Made by a program: the position numbers and the translations under genes
Part shown: positions 5,000-60,906 of the stretch, piece after piece
How positions within the stretch are numbered: the stretch's first letter is position 1
How the letters are laid out: each line of letters starts with the position of its first letter
From: Polyangium mundeleinium
GTDB taxonomy: Bacteria; Myxococcota_A; Polyangia; Polyangiales; Polyangiaceae
Assembly (NCBI RefSeq): GCF_028369105.1
Contig: NZ_JAQNDO010000001.1
Location: 7,906,501-7,970,500, forward strand
Direction of reading: 5' to 3'
Length of the DNA: 64,000 nt
The notes under the pieces: generated by a model
Database searches by the model: none
What the model saw: the letters and a program-made list of their open reading frames with translations, nothing else
What the model was told of the DNA's origin: nothing

Positions 5000-7900
5000 A
5001 TGAGCGAGCAAACCGGCACGATCGGCAAGATTTTGGCCGGACGGTACCAGGTGCGGAGGGAGCTCGGGCGTGGCGGCATGGGGGTCGTCTACCTCTGCCG
5101 TGATCTCGTGGCCGACGACCGCGTGGCCGTGAAGGTCCTGAGCCGACCGGGCGCGCGACCACGCGCCGAAGAAGCATGGTGGTTCCACGAGGAGGCCCGC
5201 GCGCTCGCGGCGCTCTCGCATCCGTGCATCGTGCGCGCGCGCGACTTCGGCGCGCTCGCCGACGGGACGCCATTTCTCGTGATGGATGCCGTGCCGGGTC
5301 GCTCGCTCCACGAGTGGCTCTACCTCGCGCAAGAGGAAGGCGGCCTGCCGTGGCCGCTCATCTGGAAGATCACCGATGACGTGCTCGCGGCGCTCGCCCA
5401 CGCGCACGCGCGCGGCGTCATCCACGGGGATCTCAAGCCCTCGAACATCCTCGTCGACATCCCGCACGACGACACGGAGCCGCCGACGGTGCACGTGCTC
5501 GATCTCGGGCTCGCATGGCTCATGCAGGATCGCGTCGACCACAGGCTCGACGGCTCGCCCGTCTCGAAGCCGACGATCCGCTGGGGCGCAGGCACGCCGG
5601 GGTGGATGGCGCCGGAGCAGATCCGTTACGCCGCGCCGCACGTGGGTCCGTCGACAGACCTCTATTCGCTCGGCTGTGTCCTCTTCACGATGATCGCGAA
5701 CCGCGAGCCGTACGAAGGCACGGACGAGGAGCTGCTCGCGAAGCACAAGAGCGCGCCGCTGCCGGAGGTGCCGCTGCGCCCCGGGCTCCCGCCGGACATC
5801 GTGCCGCTCGTGCGGCGCCTGATGAACAAGCGGCCGTGGCAGCGCTTCGAATTCGCGGCCGACGCGCGCGCTCTCCTCTGGCGGATGCGGCCGCGCAGCG
5901 GAGACCCGACGGCGACACCGAGGCCCTCGGCCGCGCCGCCGATGTCCATGCCGCTGCGCGACTCGCCGCTCGTCGTCGAGAGCACCTACCTCGACTCGCA
6001 GGTGACCACGACGGGGCTGCTCGGGCTCCGGCCGAGCCCCTTTGTTGCGCGCGCGGCCGAGCGCTCGCGGCTGCTCGACATCGCGACGCAGATCGCCACG
6101 TCGGAGACCCCGGAGCACCGCTTCCTGTTGCTGTCGGGCGAAGCCGGCGTGGGCAAGTCGCGCCTCGCGGAGTGGCTCTGCGAGGAGGTGCACGAGCGTG
6201 GCCTGGTGGTGCCGCTGCGCGCGCGGTACCGGAAGATCGCGGCGCCGCTCGACGGCGTGGTCGGCGCGATCGTGCAGCACTACCGGCTGGAGCGTGAAGG
6301 GCGCGACGTCGTCGAGAAGGTCCTCCTGAACCAGTGGGAGGTCGCGCCCGACGACGACGAAGGCAAGATGTGGGTCGCCGCGACGGCCGAGTGGATCCGG
6401 CCCTCGGCGCAGGGCGACGCGATCGGCCCGACGGGCAAACGTTTTGCGCTCTCGTCGGAGACGCGCTGGCGCGTGATGCAGTACGCGCTGCAAAAAATCG
6501 CGAAAAACCGTCCGCTCCTGTTGATGCTCGACGACCTGCATCACGGCTCGCCGACGACGTTCGAGGGCATGACGCGGCTGCACCGCGAGACGCCGGGCCT
6601 GCGGCTGCTCATCGTGGGCACGGTGCGCGACGAGGCGATCGTGACGGACCCCGTCGCGCGCGAGTGGGTCGAGTGGCTCCTGCGCGAGCTCGGCGGCGAT
6701 CGCCTGACGCTCGAGCCGCTCGACCCGACGCAGACGCACGCGCTCCTGCGCGAGACGTTGCCGCTCGACGAGGCCGCCGTGGTCGAGGCCGCGCAACGCA
6801 GCAAAGGCAACCCGCTGTTCGCGCTGCAGATCGTTCACGCGTGGGCGACGGGTGGGCACATCGAGCTTCGCGACGGGCGGTACGTGGTGCCTGAAGCAAA
6901 GCTCGCGATGCGCGCGGCCACGACGGCCGAGCTCTGGGAGGATCGTCTGCGCGCGATCCCCGAGGATCTCCGGCGCGGCGCGCGCGCGGCGGCGGCGCTC
7001 GGCGGCGATATCCGCGAGGACGTGCTGCGGATCGAGCTCGGGGCGCTCGGCGTGGACGCGGAGCGCGCAGTGGCCGCGATGAAGCGCGCGCAGATCCTGC
7101 TCGCATCCGGTGAAGAGCGCCTGCGGTGGCCCCATGCGCTCCTGCAAGAGCACCTGCTCGGGCAGCTCTTCGTGCAACCGGATGCAGCCGCGGTCCTGCG
7201 CGCCGCCGCGAACGCGCTCGGCCATCACCCCGACGCGGGCAGCCGCCGCATCGTGCGCCACCGCGTGACGAACCTCGTCCGCGCCGGAGACGTGAACGTG
7301 GCCGCGGAGCTCCTGCACCACTCGATCGCCGACTCGTGGGGGCGCACGCGCGACGTCCAGGCGACGCTGCGGGATCTGTCGCTGCTCGACGGTCGCCTCG
7401 AAGGCCTGCTGCTCGCGCGGCACCGCAGGTGGCGCGCCGAAGCGCTGCGGCACGCGGGCAGGCTCGAAGACTGCCGACGCGAGGGCGAAGAAGCGCGCAG
7501 GCTCTTCCACGAGGCTGGGGATCCCGAGAGCGAGGCTGCGTGCCTCCGGCTCCTCGGTCACGCCGCGAGTGATCTCGCCGCGCCCGCCGAGGGTCGCAAG
7601 CTCGTGGCGAGCTCGCTCGAGATGTTCCAGTCGCTCGGCGACACGCACGGGCAAGCGCTCTGCGAGGTGATCCTCGGGGAGATCGACTTCCTGCTCGGCG
7701 CGCATCTCGACGCGGCCCGCATCCTCGAAAGCGCAGGGCCGAAGTTCCAGGCCGTCGGAGATCGCCTCGGCCACGCGCAGTGCCTCGTGCTGCACAGCTT
7801 CGTCGAGCAAGCCGGCGGCTCACCCGAGAAGGCGCGCGCACTCCTCCGCACGGCGCGCGCCGAGTTCGACGCGATCGGGTATCGCCTCGGCATGGCTCAG

Positions 7901-8533
7901 TGCGACGTGACACTCGCGCACTCGGATCATCGCGAAGGTCGGCTCGAAGAAGCGCGGCGGGTGGCGCTCCTGTCGCGTCGGAGCTTCCGCGATCTCGGCA
8001 ACCCGCGCGGCGAGGGCGCGTGCGAGCGTCTGCTCGCGATGACCGCGTTCGACGCAGGTCAGCTCGACATGGCGGACGCGCACGCGCGCGCCGCGACGGC
8101 GCTCTTCGATCGGCTCTCCGATCCGTGGGGACAGGTCGAGATCAAGATCATCGTCGCGCAGATCGCGCTCGAGCGTGGGCAGGCGGAGGTCGCGCGCGCG
8201 GCGCTCGCCGAGTGCGAAGCCACCGGCCTCGCCGAGGCCGAGCCGAAGCAGCACCTCGCGCTCACCCGCGCGTGGCTCGCGTACCACGAAGGCCGGTTCC
8301 AGGACGCCGCGAACGAGCTCGATCTCGCGCGGAAGACGTTCCAGGATCCGAGGCGCACCGGGGATCACACGCCCGAGCTCCTGCGCAGGTTCAGCCGCAT
8401 GGGCTGGCCTGCGCCCGCGAGCGAGACGATCGCGGCATGGACGCGCGCGCTCTCCACGCGGAGCCCGCTCTCGACGCCGCCGCCTGCGGAGCAAACCGCC
8501 GCAGCGCCGGCTTCCGTGAAGCCCAGTCGCTAG
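5000..8533 (+). CDS. Ser/Thr protein kinase with AAA-type ATPase and TPR region (large signalling protein)
   Basis: About 1177 residues from the ATG at 5000; an in-frame ATG at 4961 gives a 13-residue extension that looks untranslated. The N-terminal kinase domain begins LAGRYQVRRELGRGGMGVVY with the glycine loop and the VAVKVL lysine. The catalytic loop is HGDLKPSN (about 142) rather than HRD, the Mg loop is DLG, and the activation segment has GTPGWMAPEQ. A P-loop GEAGVGKS at about 380 and an acidic Walker B (LLLMLDD, about 507) mark a STAND/AAA-like ATPase, followed by helical TPR-like repeats to the end. This architecture is common in myxobacteria and is thought to sense and transmit signals. 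Partners are unknown. Confidence 0.88.
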   Translation: MSEQTGTIGKILAGRYQVRRELGRGGMGVVYLCRDLVADDRVAVKVLSRPGARPRAEEAWWFHEEARALAALSHPCIVRARDFGALADGTPFLVMDAVPGRSLHEWLYLAQEEGGLPWPLIWKITDDVLAALAHAHARGVIHGDLKPSNILVDIPHDDTEPPTVHVLDLGLAWLMQDRVDHRLDGSPVSKPTIRWGAGTPGWMAPEQIRYAAPHVGPSTDLYSLGCVLFTMIANREPYEGTDEELLAKHKSAPLPEVPLRPGLPPDIVPLVRRLMNKRPWQRFEFAADARALLWRMRPRSGDPTATPRPSAAPPMSMPLRDSPLVVESTYLDSQVTTTGLLGLRPSPFVARAAERSRLLDIATQIATSETPEHRFLLLSGEAGVGKSRLAEWLCEEVHERGLVVPLRARYRKIAAPLDGVVGAIVQHYRLEREGRDVVEKVLLNQWEVAPDDDEGKMWVAATAEWIRPSAQGDAIGPTGKRFALSSETRWRVMQYALQKIAKNRPLLLMLDDLHHGSPTTFEGMTRLHRETPGLRLLIVGTVRDEAIVTDPVAREWVEWLLRELGGDRLTLEPLDPTQTHALLRETLPLDEAAVVEAAQRSKGNPLFALQIVHAWATGGHIELRDGRYVVPEAKLAMRAATTAELWEDRLRAIPEDLRRGARAAAALGGDIREDVLRIELGALGVDAERAVAAMKRAQILLASGEERLRWPHALLQEHLLGQLFVQPDAAAVLRAAANALGHHPDAGSRRIVRHRVTNLVRAGDVNVAAELLHHSIADSWGRTRDVQATLRDLSLLDGRLEGLLLARHRRWRAEALRHAGRLEDCRREGEEARRLFHEAGDPESEAACLRLLGHAASDLAAPAEGRKLVASSLEMFQSLGDTHGQALCEVILGEIDFLLGAHLDAARILESAGPKFQAVGDRLGHAQCLVLHSFVEQAGGSPEKARALLRTARAEFDAIGYRLGMAQCDVTLAHSDHREGRLEEARRVALLSRRSFRDLGNPRGEGACERLLAMTAFDAGQLDMADAHARAATALFDRLSDPWGQVEIKIIVAQIALERGQAEVARAALAECEATGLAEAEPKQHLALTRAWLAYHEGRFQDAANELDLARKTFQDPRRTGDHTPELLRRFSRMGWPAPASETIAAWTRALSTRSPLSTPPPAEQTAAAPASVKPSR

Positions 8534-8843
8534 CGCGGGGCGTTGCCCCGCACCCCAGCAGGGGGCTGTCCGCCCCCTCGACCCCGGACCAGCGAGGCGC
8601 TGGACCCAAGCTCGATGAACTGCGCTCCGCGCAGTTCATCGAACAGGCCCGGTCAAGACCAGCCTCGGCGTTGCCAACCAAGACAGCCGCGCTGCGGGTT
8701 CTGCTGGCACCCCGGCTTCTTCGTCGGCCCGTTTGAAAAACTGCGCGGAGCGCAGTTTTTCAATCACCGGTCCAGGCCGTGCCTGGTCCGGGGTCGAGGG
8801 GGCGGACAGCCCCCCGCGGGGTCCGGGGCGGCGCCCCGGCGGC
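8534..8843. repeat. Dispersed structured repeat, copy 1 (terminal inverted repeats and hairpins)
   Basis: The element starts right after the kinase stop codon and fills most of the gap to the convergent ftsH-like gene. Its ends (about 8535-8592 and 8784-8842) are long, nearly perfect inverted repeats of each other, each carrying two small hairpins. Inside are a 13-bp perfect stem at 8613-8641, a core of about 80 bases, and a 14-bp perfect stem at 8733-8763. A related element lies in reverse orientation at 60030-60321. No transposase is present and no convincing protein is encoded; it may be a mobile miniature element or a structured RNA or terminator unit. Confidence 0.85.
8733..8763. terminator. 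Bidirectional intrinsic-terminator-like hairpin inside repeat copy 1
   Basis: A perfect 14-bp stem (TTGAAAAACTGCGC) with a GGA loop. Because the GC-rich stem is flanked by five A on one side and five T on the other, it reads as a Rho-independent terminator on both strands. It lies between the convergent kinase (+) and FtsH-like (-) genes, where such an element would serve both. Confidence 0.65.
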
Positions 8844-8907
8844 GTGACGGCTTTGCGATGAGACCCATGCTCAGGGCACGGCCTGGACCGAGGCGGCGTG
8901 CACCCTC

Positions 8908-10716
8908 TCAGGCGGAAGCAGCGAGCTCCGCGGGCGCGGATTCGGCGTCATCGGCGCGCTTCTCGAAGCACGCGACGATCGCGGCGCCGACGAGCGTGTC
9001 CTCTTCGAGCAGACGCTCGGCGAGGAGGAGGACGCCGTCGCGTGTCTCGCGGACGATGCGGCAGGCGCGCTCGAGCTGATGCTCGACGAGCTTGCGCGCC
9101 ACCTCGTCGACCCGCGCGTGCAGATGCTCGCTGTGCGTCACGTGGCCCGGATGATCCGTCACGTTGATCGGCCCGAGCTCACTCATGCCGAGCTCGGCGA
9201 CCATCTTCCGCGCGAGCGACGCCGCGCGCTGGATGTCGTCCGCCGCACCCGCGGTCATCGTGCCGAGCACGACCATCTCCGCCGCGCGCCCGCCCATGAG
9301 CATGCAGATCTGATCCTCGAGGTACTCCTTCGTGTAGAGCAGCCGATCCCGCTCGGGCAGCGCCTGCGTCACGCCGAGCGCGCGGCCGCGCGGAAGGATC
9401 GAGACCTTGTGCACCGGATCGGCGTTCTTCGACGAGAGCGCCACCGTCACGTGACCAGCCTCGTGCACCGCCGTCGCGCGCCGCTCTTCCGCGTCCATCA
9501 CGAGGCTCTTGCGCTCCTCGCCCATGAGCACGCGATCACGCGCCTTGTCGATGTGCTCGAGGTCGACCTTGTCCGCGCCGCTGCGCGCCGCGAGGATCGC
9601 AGCTTCGTTCAAGAGGTTCGCGAGCTCCGCGCCGGAGAAGCCCGGCGTCACCTTCGCCACGTGCGCGAGGTCGATGTCCTCCTTCAGCACGATCGGCCGC
9701 GCGTGCACCTCGAGGATCTCCCGACGGCCGCGCAGATCCGGCAGCGGCACCACGACCTGACGGTCGAAGCGGCCGGGGCGCAGGAGCGCAGGATCGAGCA
9801 CGTCGACGCGGTTCGTCGAGGCCATGACGACGATGCCCGTCGTGTGATCGAAGCCGTCCATCTCGACGAGGAGCTGGTTCAAGGTCTGATCGTGATCGGC
9901 GGAGGCCGAGTCGCCCCCACGACCACGCGAGCGGCCGACGGCGTCGATCTCGTCGATGAACACGATGCAGGGCGAGACGCGGCGCGCCTCGGCGAAGAGG
10001 TTGCGCACGCGGGAGGCGCCCACGCCGACGAACATCTCCTGGAAGCTCGATCCCGACGCGGTGAGGAAAGGCACGCCGGCCTCGGTCGCGACGGCGCGCG
10101 CGAGCAGCGTCTTGCCCGTGCCGGGCTCCCCTGTGAGCAGCACGCCGCGCGGCGCGCGTCCGCCGAGGCGCCCGAAGCGCTCCGGGTTCTTGAGGAACTC
10201 CACCGTCTCGGCGAGCGCCTCCTTCACCTCGTCCATGCCCGCGACGTCCGTGAAGCGGACCTTGCCGACGCCGGACGCCTGGCCCTCGGAGAAGTGCGCG
10301 CGGCTCTTGCGGCGGTGCATGCCGAGGCCGACGGCGCCGAGCGCGAGCATCACCGCGATCGGCGCGAGCGCCGTCGCCGCGCGCGCGCCCGTCGAGCCCT
10401 CGCGCGAGCCGTACTCGACGGCGATGCCCGCGGCCGCGAACTTGTCGACGAGCGCGTGCCGTGCCTCCTCGTCGCCGACGATGCCCACGCGAAGCGAGCC
10501 GTCCGCGCCTCGGATCGAGAAGCGTTCACCTTCCACGCGCACCTCGGTGATCGCCTGCGATCCCGTGATCTGCGTGAGCTCGGTGTAAGAGATCGTCCCT
10601 TCGCGCGGTCCTCGCAGCGAGTAGACGAGGGCACCGATCGTCACCGCGATGATCAAAACGACCACCGGACCGACTACACGCCCCAGCCGCTTTTCGAATC
10701 TCGAGAGCCATCCCAT
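8908..10716 (-). CDS. ftsH: FtsH-type ATP-dependent zinc metalloprotease
   Basis: 602 residues from the ATG at 10716, chosen because GAGG lies nine bases upstream; two further in-frame ATGs upstream (10731, 10743) lack a site. Two membrane segments flank a periplasmic domain (about residues 16-36 and 113-133). The AAA+ domain has GEPGTGKT (about 195), the DEID Walker B and the RPGRFDR second-region-of-homology arginines. The zinc site HEAGH is at about 418-422. FtsH degrades membrane and short-lived cytosolic proteins. The chain is a little shorter than E. coli FtsH and lacks a long disordered C-terminal tail. Myxobacteria often carry several FtsH paralogs, so this may not be the main one. 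Confidence 0.93.
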
Positions 10717-16609: not shown

Positions 16610-17880
16610 GTTTGAAGACCACGAAGCGAGCGGGCGCGGGCCGACGAAAGGTCGCGTTGATCTTGTCGGGCGGCGGCGCGCGCGGCGCGTACGAGGTCGG
16701 CGTGTTGTCGTACGTGCTCGACAACTTCGCGCGCGTACGCGGCGCGGTCCCGCGCATCGACATCCTCTGCGGCACCTCGGTCGGCGCCATCAACGCGTGT
16801 TTCCTCGCCGCGCATCTCAGCGATGCGACCACCGGCATCCGCCGCCTCGCGAACCTCTGGACCGAGCTCGATCTGCCGGATGTGCTCGGCTTCGGCCTCC
16901 GCCAGGCCGTGAGCCTGCCGCGTGTCCTCCTCGGCGGCGGCAAGATGGCGGCCGGCGTCTTCGATGTCACGCCGATGGCCAAGCTCGTCGAGCGCGAGAT
17001 CCCGTGGCGCGCCATCGCGCGCACGTTGCGCCGTGGCCACCTCGGCGCGCTCAGCGTCTCGGCCACCGAGGTCGCGTCGGGCCGCACGGTCATCTTCATG
17101 CAGACCGGCCCCGACGGCGCGCTGCCCACGACAGCGCCGCCGCGCACGCTCATCCGCGGCGCGCACATCGGCCCGCTGCACGCGCTCGCCTCCGCGGCGA
17201 TCCCCATCTTGTTCCCGCCCGTCCGCATCGGCCGCGAGCTCTTCATGGATGGCGGCGTCCGGCAGAACACGCCGATCGCGCCGGCGCTCCGGCTCGGCGC
17301 GACGCACGTCTTCGCGATCGGCCTCTCGCGCGAGCTCACGGGCCCGAGCACCATGCCCGAAGACGAGAAGCCGCCGGGCGCGGCCTTCCTGCTCGGCAAG
17401 ATCCTGAACGCGTTCCTCCTCGACCACATCCAGACGGACCTCGAGGTGATGACGCGCTTGAACCACATCATCGAGGACGCGGAGAGCACCTTCGGCGGCG
17501 ACTTCTTGCAGAAGGTCAACGGCAGCGCCGAGCGACGCGGCAGCATGCCGTACAACCGCATCCACTCGCTCGTGGTGCGCCCGAGCGAGGACATCGGCAA
17601 GCTCGCGGCCGAGTACGTGCGTCGCGGCAACATCCACGGCGGCCCGGCGTTCGCGCGGCGCATGCTCACGCTCGTCGACGTCGGCGAAGCGACCGAAGCG
17701 GACCTCGCGAGTTACCTGCTCTTCGACGGCGCCTTCGCGCGCAGGCTCATCGATCTCGGCCGCGCCGACGCCGAGGCGCGCAGGCACGACATCGCCGACT
17801 TCTTCGGCAGCGCGGACGAGGACGACGAGCCGCGCCACGCCGAGAACACGAGCTGGACGATCCCGCCGCCGGTGGACTGA
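16606..17880 (+). CDS. Patatin-like phospholipase
   Basis: 424 residues with all patatin motifs: the oxyanion GGGARGAYEVGVL near residue 22, the nucleophile in GTSVGAINA near 58, and the catalytic aspartate in MDGGVRQNTPI near 215. It should hydrolyse acyl chains from phospholipids or related esters at a membrane surface. It lacks a signal peptide, so a cytosolic or inner-membrane-associated role is likely. The start overlaps the kinase stop by four bases. The last 20 residues are acidic and poorly conserved. A 43-bp tandem array begins 11 bases after the stop. Confidence 0.93.
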
Positions 17881-17891
17881 GTCGTCCCGAA

Positions 17892-18190
17892 GGGGTCGCC
17901 ACGCGTCGACACACGCCGGTCATCGTCGACCGAGGGGGTCGCCACGCGTCGACACACGCCGGTCATCGTCGACCGAGGGGGTCGCCACACGTCGACACCC
18001 GCTGGTCGTCGTCGACCGAAGGGGTCGCCACGCGTCGACACCCGCTGGTCGTCGTCGACCGAAGGGGTCACCTCGCGTCGACACACGCTGGTCGTCGTCG
18101 ACCGAAGGGGTCGCCTCGTGTCGACACCCGCTGGTCATCGTCGACCGAGGGGGTCGCCACGCGTCGACCCCCTCGGTCATCACGACGAGC
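17892..18190. repeat. Tandem array of a 43-bp unit (six full copies plus a partial)
   Basis: Units begin at 17892, 17935, 17978, 18021, 18064, 18107 and 18150, the last being truncated after about 19 bases and continuing into divergent sequence. Each starts GGGGTCGCC, has two GTCGAC palindromes about 14 bases apart and contains a GGTCG/CGACC mini-hairpin. Copies differ by a few transitions. The period is not a multiple of three, so it is not a coding repeat. It lies between the convergent patatin (+) and catalase-like (-) genes. Confidence 0.95.
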
Positions 18191-18977
18191 CCTCGATCGA
18201 CGCGACCTTCCTCCCCGCGCGGCTCGCGGCGTACGTGGCGGCGCGGAGCATCTGGAACGGACCGACCGGCATGATCCCGCGACCTGCGTGGAACGGCGTG
18301 AACGACAGCGCCTCCTGATCCACGAGCGATCGCTCCTCCAGATCGATCAGCGCCACCGCTTCCCATCGCGACATCCGCAGGATCTGCTCCGGTGAACGCA
18401 GCCGCGCGCCGAGCGCCCCTGCTTGCGTCACCTCGAGCCGCAGCACCGCGTTCCCTGCGGCCACGGCTCGCTCGAGCCGCTCGCGCCGGCTGCCTCGTGT
18501 CTCCCTCTGCCGCGCCGGCACGAGCCTGAATTTCACGCGCCCGAGCCCGAGCACGTAGAACGGCAGGATCGCGTGGTACTCGTTCGCCAGGTAGTCGTGC
18601 ACGTTCGTGGTGAGCGGCGCGAACGGCAGCGACCAGATGTGCTGGAACGTCGCGAAGAGCAGGTCCTGATCCCGCGCGGAGACCTCCACCGACATCGCCG
18701 TCGGCGCGCGCCCGCAGAAGCGCACCGCGATCCCGAGCGCGTCCGGCAGCTCCTTCTCGTGACGCCACCACGCGGAGGACAGCCGCACGAGCGCGGGCCC
18801 CGCGAGCCGCTGCGCGAGCTCTCCCGCGGCGCCCTCGCGCGCGAGCGGCCGCACGTCTGCCCGGAACAAGACGCCGTCCGGATGGAAGAGCCGCGCTCGC
18901 CGCAGCAGGCTCCCCTCCCCTGCGATCGGGGACAAAAGCCCGCCCATCGCCCGCCCCAACGCCTCGGTTGCCCGCAT
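18180..18977 (-). CDS. Catalase-superfamily-like protein, function unknown
   Basis: 265 residues from the ATG at 18977 (MRATEALGRAMGG). The pattern FHPDGVLFRADV, LSSAWWR, PDALGIAVRF, DLLFATFQHIWSLPFAPLTTNVHDYLANEYHAI-type strands and a long basic C-terminal half resembles small bacterial proteins of the catalase fold that are often annotated as phosphodiesterase or hypothetical. The haem-proximal tyrosine motif of true catalases is not evident, so peroxide activity is doubtful. The 3' end runs into the last partial unit of the 43-bp array. No partner gene is obvious; the neighbour upstream is the divergent phosphoesterase. Confidence 0.7.
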   Translation of the reverse strand: MRATEALGRAMGGLLSPIAGEGSLLRRARLFHPDGVLFRADVRPLAREGAAGELAQRLAGPALVRLSSAWWRHEKELPDALGIAVRFCGRAPTAMSVEVSARDQDLLFATFQHIWSLPFAPLTTNVHDYLANEYHAILPFYVLGLGRVKFRLVPARQRETRGSRRERLERAVAAGNAVLRLEVTQAGALGARLRSPEQILRMSRWEAVALIDLEERSLVDQEALSFTPFHAGRGIMPVGPFQMLRAATYAASRAGRKVASIEGSS

Positions 18978-59528: not shown

Positions 59529-59972
59529 GTGAGCGATGCGCTTTCTTTGACGATGCTGGACGCACCCTCCGCCGCCCGTATGCCCTCGGCCTCGCACATG
59601 CCGCCATTTGCGGTTCGCCAGGCCCCCATCACCCAAACGCTGCCGAAGATCCCCGCTCCGCAGCCGTCACAAATCATCCCGAAGAGCACGCCCGAGCGCA
59701 TGCGGGTCGCCCGCGAACGCATCCGGGCCGCCGCAGAAGCCGGTCAACGAATCCGCTCGTACGAGGTCGCTCTCGACCTCGACCTGTCCGAGTTCCACTT
59801 CGCCCGGCAGTTCCGCGCCGCCTTCGGTCGCTCTCCTCACGTGTTCTACGATGAGGTGCGCGCCCAAAAAGCCCGCGAGCTGCTCACCGAAGGCATGAGC
59901 GAAGGCGACGTCGCCCGCCGCATCGGCTTCCGCAGGCCCGCCGAGCTGCGTGCCCTGCTGTCGAAGCGCTGA
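59529..59972 (+). CDS. Small AraC-type DNA-binding protein
   Basis: 147 residues from a GTG at 59529, decided by AAGGAGAGG just upstream. Residues 1-50 are Pro/Ala/Met-rich and probably disordered. The rest (RERIRAAAEAGQRIRSYEVALDLDLSEFHFARQFRAAFGRSPHVFYDEVRAQKARELL and MSEGDVARRIGFRRPAELRALL) is a complete double-HTH AraC DNA-binding domain without the sensory domain of typical AraC regulators. Such proteins may be constitutive or depend on a partner. The structured leader suggests post-transcriptional control. Confidence 0.82.
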   Translation: MSDALSLTMLDAPSAARMPSASHMPPFAVRQAPITQTLPKIPAPQPSQIIPKSTPERMRVARERIRAAAEAGQRIRSYEVALDLDLSEFHFARQFRAAFGRSPHVFYDEVRAQKARELLTEGMSEGDVARRIGFRRPAELRALLSKR

Positions 59973-60029
59973 GCCGAAGTTGCTCGTTCAACGTCTCGCC
60001 GGTGATCCGGCTTCTTTCCTCACAACGTA

Positions 60030-60321
60030 GCGCCGGGGTTTCACCCCGGACCCGACCAGGGGCTCTCCGCCCCTGGACCCGGACCAGGGCAAGCCCTGGA
60101 CGCGGGGCGACAGCGCGCGATGCGCGCTGTCGACAAGGAAGACGTTCCCAGCAAATAGAGCAGCGCTGCTGTCTCGACTGGCAAAATCGTGGAGGGTCTT
60201 GCCACGGACCCGTCGGAAAAACCGCGCCTCGCGCGGTTTTCCGCCCTCGGTCCAGGCCGTGCCTGGTCCGGGGTGAAGGGGGCGGACAGCCCCCTTCCGG
60301 GGTGCGGGGTAGAGCCCCGCT
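60030..60321. repeat. Dispersed structured repeat, copy 2 (inverted relative to copy 1)
   Basis: Reverse complementing this element aligns it with 8534-8843: the left end is almost the same sequence, and a core of about 80 bases shares many short blocks (CAAGACC, TTGCCA, GAGACAGC, GCGCTGC, TTGCTGG). Its internal hairpins are an 11-bp perfect stem at 60108-60132, and an A-run/T-run hairpin at 60215-60242. The stems differ in sequence from copy 1 but sit in the same places. It also lies between convergent genes (AraC-like + and lipoprotein -). Confidence 0.85.
60215..60242. terminator. Intrinsic-terminator-like hairpin inside repeat copy 2
   Basis: GGAAAAACCGCGC with GCGCGGTTTTCC (one extra A), CTC loop; a GC stem flanked by A-run and T-run as in copy 1. 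It would work on both strands between the two convergent genes. Confidence 0.6.
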
Positions 60322-60381
60322 CATCCGCGCGGACGACGAGACGCGGCGCTGGCTCCGCTCTGCGGAGCGGGTGTCGCGGCG

Positions 60382-60906
60382 TCAGCGGGCTGCGCGACGA
60401 AGGACGCTGACGCCGGGCCAGGTCTTGCCGCGATCCGTGACTTCCCACTCGTCCGCGCCGAGAAACCGGCACTTCGCGCCGTCGAACATGCCTCCGCTCG
60501 CTCGAAGCGTGAAGGCGTCGCCGGACTCGCCTTCCACCTGATACGGCGCGCTTTCGTCGGGCGTCTTTGAGGTCCGCACGCTCTGCGCATCCTTGTCGAA
60601 CCCGATGCGCAGCGACTCGAACAGGTCCGCCATCAGCGGCATCGCCTCGTTCGGGATCGGGTGATCCGACGTGTATCGGACGATCTCCCACGTCCCCTGA
60701 AGCTTCTTCTTCACACCCACGAGCTCGGGCTCGGCGGGTTTGTCCGCCTCGATCGCCGCGCCCGTCGATGGCCCTTCCACGGCCTGCCCACTGCCACCCG
60801 CGCAGCCCACGAGGAGCGGCACGAACATGATCCCAAGGCGAAAGCGTCCCACGATCCAGGAAGGTACGCCGACTTTGGGAGTCACCTCAAGTCTGCCGCG
60901 AACCAA
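60382..60906 (-). CDS. Predicted lipoprotein
   Basis: 174 residues from the ATG at 60906; GTG starts further in are possible. A signal (GRFRLGIMFVPLLVG) with lipobox LVGC is followed by a short linker and a beta-rich domain (QGTWEIVRYTSD, LRIGFDKDAQSVRT, AFTLRASGGMFDGAKCRFLGADEWEVTD), reminiscent of lipocalin-like or stress lipoproteins, but no family is certain. Its start overlaps the end of the nitrilase gene by 20 bases, so both are likely in one transcript. Confidence 0.72.
   Translation of the reverse strand: MVRGRLEVTPKVGVPSWIVGRFRLGIMFVPLLVGCAGGSGQAVEGPSTGAAIEADKPAEPELVGVKKKLQGTWEIVRYTSDHPIPNEAMPLMADLFESLRIGFDKDAQSVRTSKTPDESAPYQVEGESGDAFTLRASGGMFDGAKCRFLGADEWEVTDRGKTWPGVSVLRRAAR

Follow-up and report, generated by a model that had tools for sequence, protein, structure and literature searches.

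A probable mosaic palindromic MITE of Polyangium carrying BIME-like hairpin cassettes at gene 3' ends

INTRODUCTION

Compensatory stem changes are normally taken as proof of a functional RNA. A locus at 8534-8843 of a 64,000-nucleotide stretch of the Polyangium mundeleinium chromosome (the window hereafter; contig NZ_JAQNDO010000001.1, positions 7,906,501 to 7,970,500) raises the question of whether this rule holds for it. A sequence-only reading of the window described a structured element there, with inverted ends and inner hairpins, whose inverted second copy has different inner stems in which changes on both sides keep the pairing. Selection on shape or repeated re-palindromisation had been suggested as the cause, and the element had been read as either a miniature mobile element or a family of structured RNAs or terminators. 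Here, we examined the anatomy of the element, the range of its family, its ends, its position relative to genes and the evolution of its stems.

RESULTS

Anatomy of the window element

The structured element was found to be real. Copy 1 carries eight hairpins within 8535-8839, and a repeat search showed its arms (8554-8649 and 8726-8821) to be 81% complementary over 96 nt. Its folding gave z = -18.0 as RNA and z = -13.8 as DNA, with none of 100 shuffles each folding as well, and copy 2 gave z = -10.2 as RNA, with none of 200 shuffles as good. The inner stems had been described as perfect stems of 13 and 14 bp; the perfect pairing was correct, and both are 14 bp long. The second copy is likewise real, with its different inner stems and its core in inverse orientation, and the inverted match between the copies covers 72 nt (8535-8606 to 60249-60320) at 83% (Table 1).

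The limits of the element had to be redrawn, since the mobile unit is larger than first proposed: it includes a terminal repeat to the right of copy 1, beyond which the apparent remains of a second element extend to 8907. Half of a hairpin 3 (GGCACGGCCTGGACC) lies directly outside this right terminal repeat. By sequence similarity, the window copy appears to sit nested inside a second, IS5-type MITE bearing the same hairpin module. The start of copy 1 directly abuts the TAG stop codon at 8531-8533; a left terminal repeat was looked for at copy 1 and none was found, and copy 2 has no outer terminal repeat within 3 mismatches. In other family copies, insertions have hit the tip of hairpin 3, GGCACGGCC. 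Elsewhere in the window, at 17844-18230, seven direct copies with a 43-bp period and the sequence GGGTCGCCACGCGTCGACACACGCCGGTCA overlap a gene end and the convergent gap 17880-18180.

Table 1. Features of the two L-type copies and their surroundings, in window coordinates.
Feature	Position	Strand	Description
Upstream convergent gene	5000-8533	+	Protein-kinase-like start (by eye); ends directly at the element
L-type element, copy 1	8534-8843	.	Two inverted four-hairpin arms flanking a core
Hairpin 1	8535-8551	.	GCGGGGC-GTT-GCCCCGC
Hairpin 2	8560-8578	.	AGGGGGC-TGTCC-GCCCCCT
Hairpin 3	8586-8606	.	GGACCAGCG-AGG-CGCTGGACC, with a fixed A.A mismatch
Hairpin 4, left inner hairpin	8612-8642	.	14-bp stem, loop TCC
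Variable core between the arms	8643-8732	.	Conservation below that of the stems in two aligned subfamilies
Hairpin 5, right inner hairpin	8733-8763	.	14-bp stem, loop GGA
Hairpin 6	8769-8789	.	Mirror of hairpin 3
Hairpin 7	8798-8814	.	Mirror of hairpin 2
Hairpin 8	8823-8839	.	Mirror of hairpin 1
L-type MITE right terminal inverted repeat	8857-8874	-	CTGAGCATGGGTCTCATC read inward; 0 mismatches to the 15-base end motif
Probable S-type (IS5-type) remains, from similarity	8875-8907	.	Half hairpin 3 (GGCACGGCCTGGACC), end ...GCACCCTC
TCA, the TGA stop codon of the right-hand gene	8908-8910	-	Occupies the place of the S-type 3-bp target duplication
Downstream convergent gene	8908-10665	-	FtsH-like AAA protease (by eye)
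L-type element, copy 2	60030-60321	-	Between convergent genes 59580-59972 (+) and 60382-60828 (-)

Size and range of the family

In this 13.25-Mb genome, 83 distinct family places were examined, and a hairpin-3 pattern (at most 2 mismatches) gave 173 matches, compared with 0 for the reversed control. A pattern scan of named genomes returned 110 stretches, and every one came from Polyangium (P. fumosum DSM 14668, sp. y55x31 and sp. 15x6). The one-arm covariance model matched all 6 Polyangium genomes, with at least 60 matches in each, and none of 53 other genomes of the order, for which the best 60 candidates per genome were scored under stricter filters. BLAST with the whole element also found all 6 Polyangium genomes (best 12 per genome scored); outside the genus it gave three short single matches in 3 other genera (35-47 bases, E 1e-5 to 2e-4). 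As judged from these searches, the family has so far been found only in the genus Polyangium. Rfam gave no match in the window at gathering thresholds, and literature searches found no paper on this hairpin-element family. Further copies had been proposed as the check on whether the two window copies are an isolated duplication; such copies exist in the host and in its relatives, and the case of neither copies nor covariation did not arise.

The exact hairpin-3 matches are unevenly distributed, with 61 of 70 in the chromosome half opposite dnaA (p = 1e-10 if independent; origin assumed at dnaA). This excess could be explained if the elements were binding sites of a chromosome-organising protein or gyrase, and the fixed mismatch of hairpin 3 described below would also suit a protein site. 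However, accessory and mobile DNA often collects opposite the replication origin, and we consider this explanation unlikely.

L-type ends, target duplications and the IS4/Tn5-type partner

Intact L-type copies terminate in CTGAGCATTGGTCTCATCTGGGAG repeats. Outside the hairpins, the 15-base motif CTGAGCATNGGTCTC (at most 3 mismatches) was found at 27 of 440 edges, compared with 1 in reversed flanks, and each of the six Polyangium genomes contains the 20-base L-type end, sp. 15x6 with the highest count (33 matches). At 43 of 53 L-type ends, among the loci taken for the end search, TGA directly precedes GCAT. Reading this TGA as a target duplication was rejected, since it is part of the terminal repeat and the target duplications span 9 bp; it serves as the in-frame stop of a called gene at 8 of the 43 ends. 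Paired ends are present at 36 places: at 8 of them (6 MITE copies and 2 IS copies) the 9-bp duplication is perfect, at 4 it has a single mismatch, and at the other 24 the 9-mers differ at 2 or more positions.

The L-type element is short and non-autonomous, is bounded by terminal inverted repeats and shows target duplications, and it has its ends in common with an autonomous IS, whose ends are CTGAGCACTGGTCTCATC and CTGAGCATTGGTTCCATC. This IS is 1504 bp long and present in four copies (L418-L421, near 5333069, 5450406, 6280513 and 8042648 of contig 1 of this genome), which are 99.6-99.9% identical to the first. Its transposase of 475 aa matches NF033590 at 254.6 bits (cut-off 160), which makes it an IS4-family, Tn5-type enzyme, as well as PF14706 (44.7 bits, cut-off 24) and PF02281 (27.4 bits, cut-off 26.7). 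By the features examined, the L-type family is a MITE of an IS4/Tn5-type element, and the Tn5-type transposase probably moves it in trans. The intact ends, the 9-bp duplications, the IS with the same kind of ends and the occupied and free places described below bear out the earlier proposal of a miniature mobile element.

CTGA ends and 9-bp duplications are typical of IS10 and IS50. Like MITEs of IS4-family (Tn5/IS50/IS10-type) IS, the L-type element is a short non-coding unit with terminal repeats starting in CTGA and 9-bp duplications, and an autonomous IS with the same kind of ends resides in the genome. It differs from them in its interior, which consists of two inverted four-hairpin arms kept paired by two-sided changes, and in that the same arm also rides in an IS5-type-ended MITE.

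Some insertions lie in the family's own hairpins. Two of the four IS copies occupy the hairpin 3 tip of family members, with the duplication GGCACGGCC; a third (L420) lies among family sequence without a matching duplication, and a one-mismatch duplication flanks the fourth. Half of a hairpin 3 stands directly outside 7 of 98 distinct L-type or IS ends, of which four come from two IS copies, one from the window copy and one from a probable IS end in P. fumosum (L187). At 5 of 12 target sites, including those of the two IS copies in hairpin 3, the insertion point carried a stem of at least 5 bp, compared with 11.7% of positions near stops (p = 0.008). Hairpin tips, including the family's own hairpin 3, are probably favoured insertion targets.

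A second vehicle with IS5-type ends

The four-hairpin module occurs twice, in inverted orientation, in the L-type element and singly in the S-type MITE, which has IS5-type ends. A 127-bp palindromic MITE has the same ends, GAGGGTGTTCC, and the same 3-bp TCA duplication as the single-armed S-type elements. The idea that all copies end in GAGGGTGTT was considered and rejected, since this motif lies within 200 bp of an edge in only 5 of 282 element records longer than 90 bp (records not deduplicated); these ends belong to the short S-type.

IS5-type elements prefer TNA targets. The S-type and 127-bp elements resemble IS5-family-ended MITEs in their GAGGGTGTTCC ends, in the TNA-like 3-bp duplication and in the presence in the genome of an IS5-type transposase with one GAGGGTGTTCC-like end. 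They differ in the fate of the TGA beside the end, which is the in-frame stop of the neighbouring gene at 16 of 18 TGA-preceded ends, compared with 567 of 3265 non-coding TGA sites (17.4%) in the background (p = 7e-11 if independent). Because many loci were fetched with a pattern containing TCA, and some insertions (L300/L302, L318/L325) are apparently orthologous, the independent events are fewer than those counted. Why the IS5-type MITE inserts at stop codons is a distinct puzzle of target choice that should be easy to test. In the 127-bp MITE loci L300, L302, L304, L305, L307, L312, L316, L318, L321 and L326 (near 1390-1517), the TGA beside one end is an in-frame stop.

Occupied and free sites in related genomes

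We compared three blocks (about 0.6 Mb) of this genome with Polyangium G003 and found 29 shared element records, each site being counted from both genomes, and 13 in one genome only, with 12 further records lacking a clear assignment. In two convergent gaps, G003 has an element and this genome a different hairpin, CCCCTCTCCC...GGGAGAGGGG. Four S-type insertions in one of these two genomes have a free site in the other, two of them nearly base for base. A search with joined flanks found, among the matches listed, orthologous free sites for L383 only, an intact-ended copy of sp. 15x6, in two other species; the sequence there has diverged around the insertion point, and the search covered a subset of sequence. 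This young insertion apparently lies upstream of a start codon (by eye). The same search returned other intact elements for L419 and L421, in which the IS lies inside an element, family members only for L420, and nothing among the matches listed for L348, L354, L358, L363, L367, L372, L382 and L418. A 317-bp insertion at 7186150 looked coding and unrelated. At 8019708-8020680, this genome has a tandem pair of elements where G003 has one copy, which suggests recombination between copies.

Position relative to genes and terminators

Among the 83 places, 38 lie in convergent, 32 in tandem and 5 in divergent gaps, and 8 are without class. This location behind genes, rarely between divergent ones, is that of REP/BIME elements. 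The 144 element records in named-genome loci comprise 62 convergent, 45 tandem and 10 divergent ones and 27 without class. Convergent gaps make up 38 of the 75 classified places and 123 of 797 element-free gaps (Fisher p = 3e-11), the background gaps being non-independent because they come from largely orthologous blocks of this genome and G003. A stop codon lies within 35 bp on at least one side in 63 of the 75 places. Edges facing a stop are at a median of 15 bp from it (82 of 108 within 35 bp), and edges facing a start at a median of 127 bp (4 of 42 within 35 bp); in tandem gaps, the stop is the nearer neighbour in 26 of 32. Of the 9 MITE places with a 9-bp duplication (at most one mismatch), 6 have one end no more than 20 bp from a called stop. 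Genes were called with a home-made codon scorer and checked by eye in the window. Tolerance or targeting alone could produce this gene-end location.

Element-free convergent gaps of 30-250 bp contain a stem of at least 8 bp in 18 of 35 cases (1.0 expected), compared with 0 of 80 divergent and 18 of 241 tandem gaps, so in these blocks strong hairpins mark convergent gaps generally. Other gene-end hairpins seen in element-free convergent gaps include CCCCTCTCCC...GGGAGAGGGG, GAGGGCGCGCCCCGAAGCGCGCGCCCTC and the repeated TTTGGGGCGAAGGGCGCCG...CCCGAAGCCCCAAG, and a few of them have T-tails.

These results agree in part with the earlier proposal of a terminator: the position behind stops and the hairpins of other convergent gaps favour it, and the single weak T-run hairpin inside the window copies does not. 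A scan for hairpins followed by a T-run gave one weak match, close to chance, in 8300-9100 (0.4 in shuffles), at 8703-8716 in the core of copy 1, and two in 59850-60500 (0.5 in shuffles), both outside copy 2; an intrinsic terminator was not found within the two window copies scanned. One T-tailed hairpin, at 59998-60011, lies between the stop of the left gene and copy 2, so a separate terminator may exist there. If the arms terminate transcription, they would do so without the classic tail.

Stems stay paired by two-sided changes

In two subfamilies (46 and 25 copies), the left inner stem shows full conservation in every column, and conservation is 80-100% in most of the remaining stem columns; values go down to 40-80% in the inner loops and range from about 30% to 100% in the core. 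Among 332 arms from full-length elements, 274 have a completely paired inner stem and 306 reach 13 or more of its 14 pairs. Of the 317 arms (out of 357) in which the outer terminal repeat cannot be recognised, 285 still have 13 or more of the 14 inner-stem pairs. A set of 346 hairpins, in which perfect pairing follows from the detection method, contains 25 classes of inner stem, three of which account for 296.

Covariation was analyzed using the first 60 of 77 diverse arms drawn from the 357. Two-sided changes were present at 19 of 36 pairs, as in a covarying stem, with 204 two-sided change cells (68 in shuffles, 14-53 in slid controls) and a covariation score of 0.254 (0.106 shuffled, 0.038-0.064 slid); further pair types were no more frequent than in shuffles (37 vs 36.7). 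Hairpin 1 had 94.8% of its cells paired, with two-sided changes in 5 of 7 pairs, and hairpin 2 had 91.8% paired; the invariance of hairpin 3 in this alignment is partly by construction, since the selection pattern fixes much of it.

Orthologous sites gave a similar result. In 15 elements shared by this genome and G003, divergence is 5.7% in stems, 17.3% in loops and 12.1% in the rest of the element, compared with 10.4% in intergenic flanks and 7.9% in coding ends. Among the stem pairs, 32 changed on both sides and are still Watson-Crick, and 24 changed otherwise (18 broken on one side, 5 turned to G-T and 1 broken on both sides); 76 pairs lie in gaps. Ten orthologous hairpins differ in exactly one pair and have no unpaired change. 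Some of these single-pair changes are two-sided transversions without a possible G-T intermediate, such as C-G to A-T with an unchanged loop, the stem classes of this example being seen once and twice among the 346 hairpins. The two-sided changes noticed between the two window copies are strongly confirmed across copies and at orthologous sites, and the covariance analysis proposed for them gave clear covariation.

G-T pairs occupy 11 of 4970 cells of the inner stem and 24 of 2140 cells over all four helices, so the wobble tolerance that is typical of structured RNA, if not strictly defining, was not observed. Wobble pairs should be acceptable under selection on a single RNA strand; because G-T on one strand is A-C on the other, the scarcity would fit a constraint on DNA or on transcripts of two strands. 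A family of structured or attenuator-like RNAs selected for RNA shape would agree with the strong covariation, with the very stable RNA fold and with a location where transcripts would run through. Nevertheless, the near absence of G-T pairs, the transversions without a wobble intermediate, the absence of an Rfam family and the near symmetry of the element, most copies of which match the opposite strand too (about 70-77%), leave this reading unsupported, and we regard it as very improbable.

Hairpin 3 has a mismatch that is A.A in 311, T.T in 13 and G.A in 1 of 325 arms and Watson-Crick in none, as counted with a looser anchor that matched 325 of 440 arms and missed 115. Since this mismatch is kept, the palindromes are not simply perfected, and re-palindromisation alone fails as an explanation. 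The mismatch looks like a recognised feature. With so few G-T pairs and a mismatch that is always left unrepaired, the stems are not fully accounted for either by selection on RNA or by simple repair of palindromes.

Coordinated stem changes can also arise without selection, via template switching or exchange of whole hairpins. Inversion of the spacer by template switching was rejected, since the loops keep their orientation: the three main right loops do not occur among 70 left inner loops, two of 70 right loops (TCC) belong to the main left loops, and no loop change among 90 orthologous hairpins is a reverse complement. Recombination among copies could keep the stems perfect without any function. 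The element could be a purely selfish MITE that has no host function and accumulates behind stops because insertion does no harm there or because its transposase prefers hairpins, its stems being kept perfect by exchange and template switching. The combination of the three main inner stems with the same few loops is what module exchange predicts, the stems at the target sites described above would suit a hairpin preference, and template switching is known from an excerpt of PMC8794818 to create and maintain hairpins. However, the hairpin 3 mismatch is never repaired although the neighbouring stems are perfect, strong hairpins mark element-free convergent gaps too, and the kept loop orientation is a poor fit to spacer inversion. 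We therefore consider a purely selfish element possible but less probable than one with a role at gene ends.

DISCUSSION

The family is best compared with REP/BIME elements. Excerpts of PMC3733652 describe these as mosaics of palindromic units in alternating orientation and high copy number, located downstream of genes and between convergent or unidirectional ORFs, with subfamilies that have alternative complementary stem bases and with ends that supply stop codons; an excerpt of PMC1525189 describes REP hairpins hit by IS elements. The Polyangium family shares the copy number, alternating palindromes, mosaic build, gene-end location, stem subfamilies, stop-supplying ends and IS-hit hairpins. 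It differs in having CTGA repeat ends, read by eye, instead of GTAG/CGTC tags, none of which was found at the hairpin foot, and transposon ends with duplications. Its G-T pairs are almost absent, whereas frequent G-T pairing was taken by the REP authors as a sign of RNA function (PMC3733652, excerpt). A RAYT/REP origin was rejected, since no RAYT (Y1 transposase, PF01797) matched in this genome. By analogy, the Polyangium element would work most like a BIME, yet it is no REP by the features examined.

The unusual features of the family are a four-hairpin module on two unrelated MITE backbones, two-sided changes that are nearly free of wobble, a fixed mismatch and insertions at stop codons. We think it probable, on balance, that the element is a mosaic palindromic MITE of Polyangium carrying a BIME-like hairpin cassette at gene 3' ends, with a presumed effect on transcription. 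The element would move, or have moved, via the terminal repeats shared with the resident IS4/Tn5-type IS, presumably acted on in trans. Most copies are found right behind a stop codon, with convergent gaps as the chief location. Their outer ends are usually decayed while the stems stay paired, both sides changing together. Many of the coordinated changes probably come from whole-hairpin exchange and template switching. At gene 3' ends, the hairpins most likely function at the level of DNA or of two strands, and they may form a bidirectional block or a protected end for two converging transcripts, as proposed for BIMEs. The element may act as a movable "end of gene" signal.

A bolder version is offered as a tentative speculation, in which Polyangium would have turned transposon-borne hairpin modules into movable, exchangeable bidirectional gene ends. 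These would travel on two unrelated MITE backbones, land on stops and hairpin tips and replace other gene-end hairpins, with pairing kept at the DNA level without G-T intermediates and with the fixed mismatch recognised by a factor.

In summary, changes that would normally be credited to a functional RNA occur here in a mobile DNA family, among species about 95% alike, with almost no wobble pairs and with a fixed mismatch as an internal control. The hundreds of arms, together with the orthologous and element-free sites, are a natural test bed for whether stems are maintained by selection, by exchange of modules or by template switching. Should the gene-end role be true, mobile elements would supply transcription boundaries in a large myxobacterial genome.
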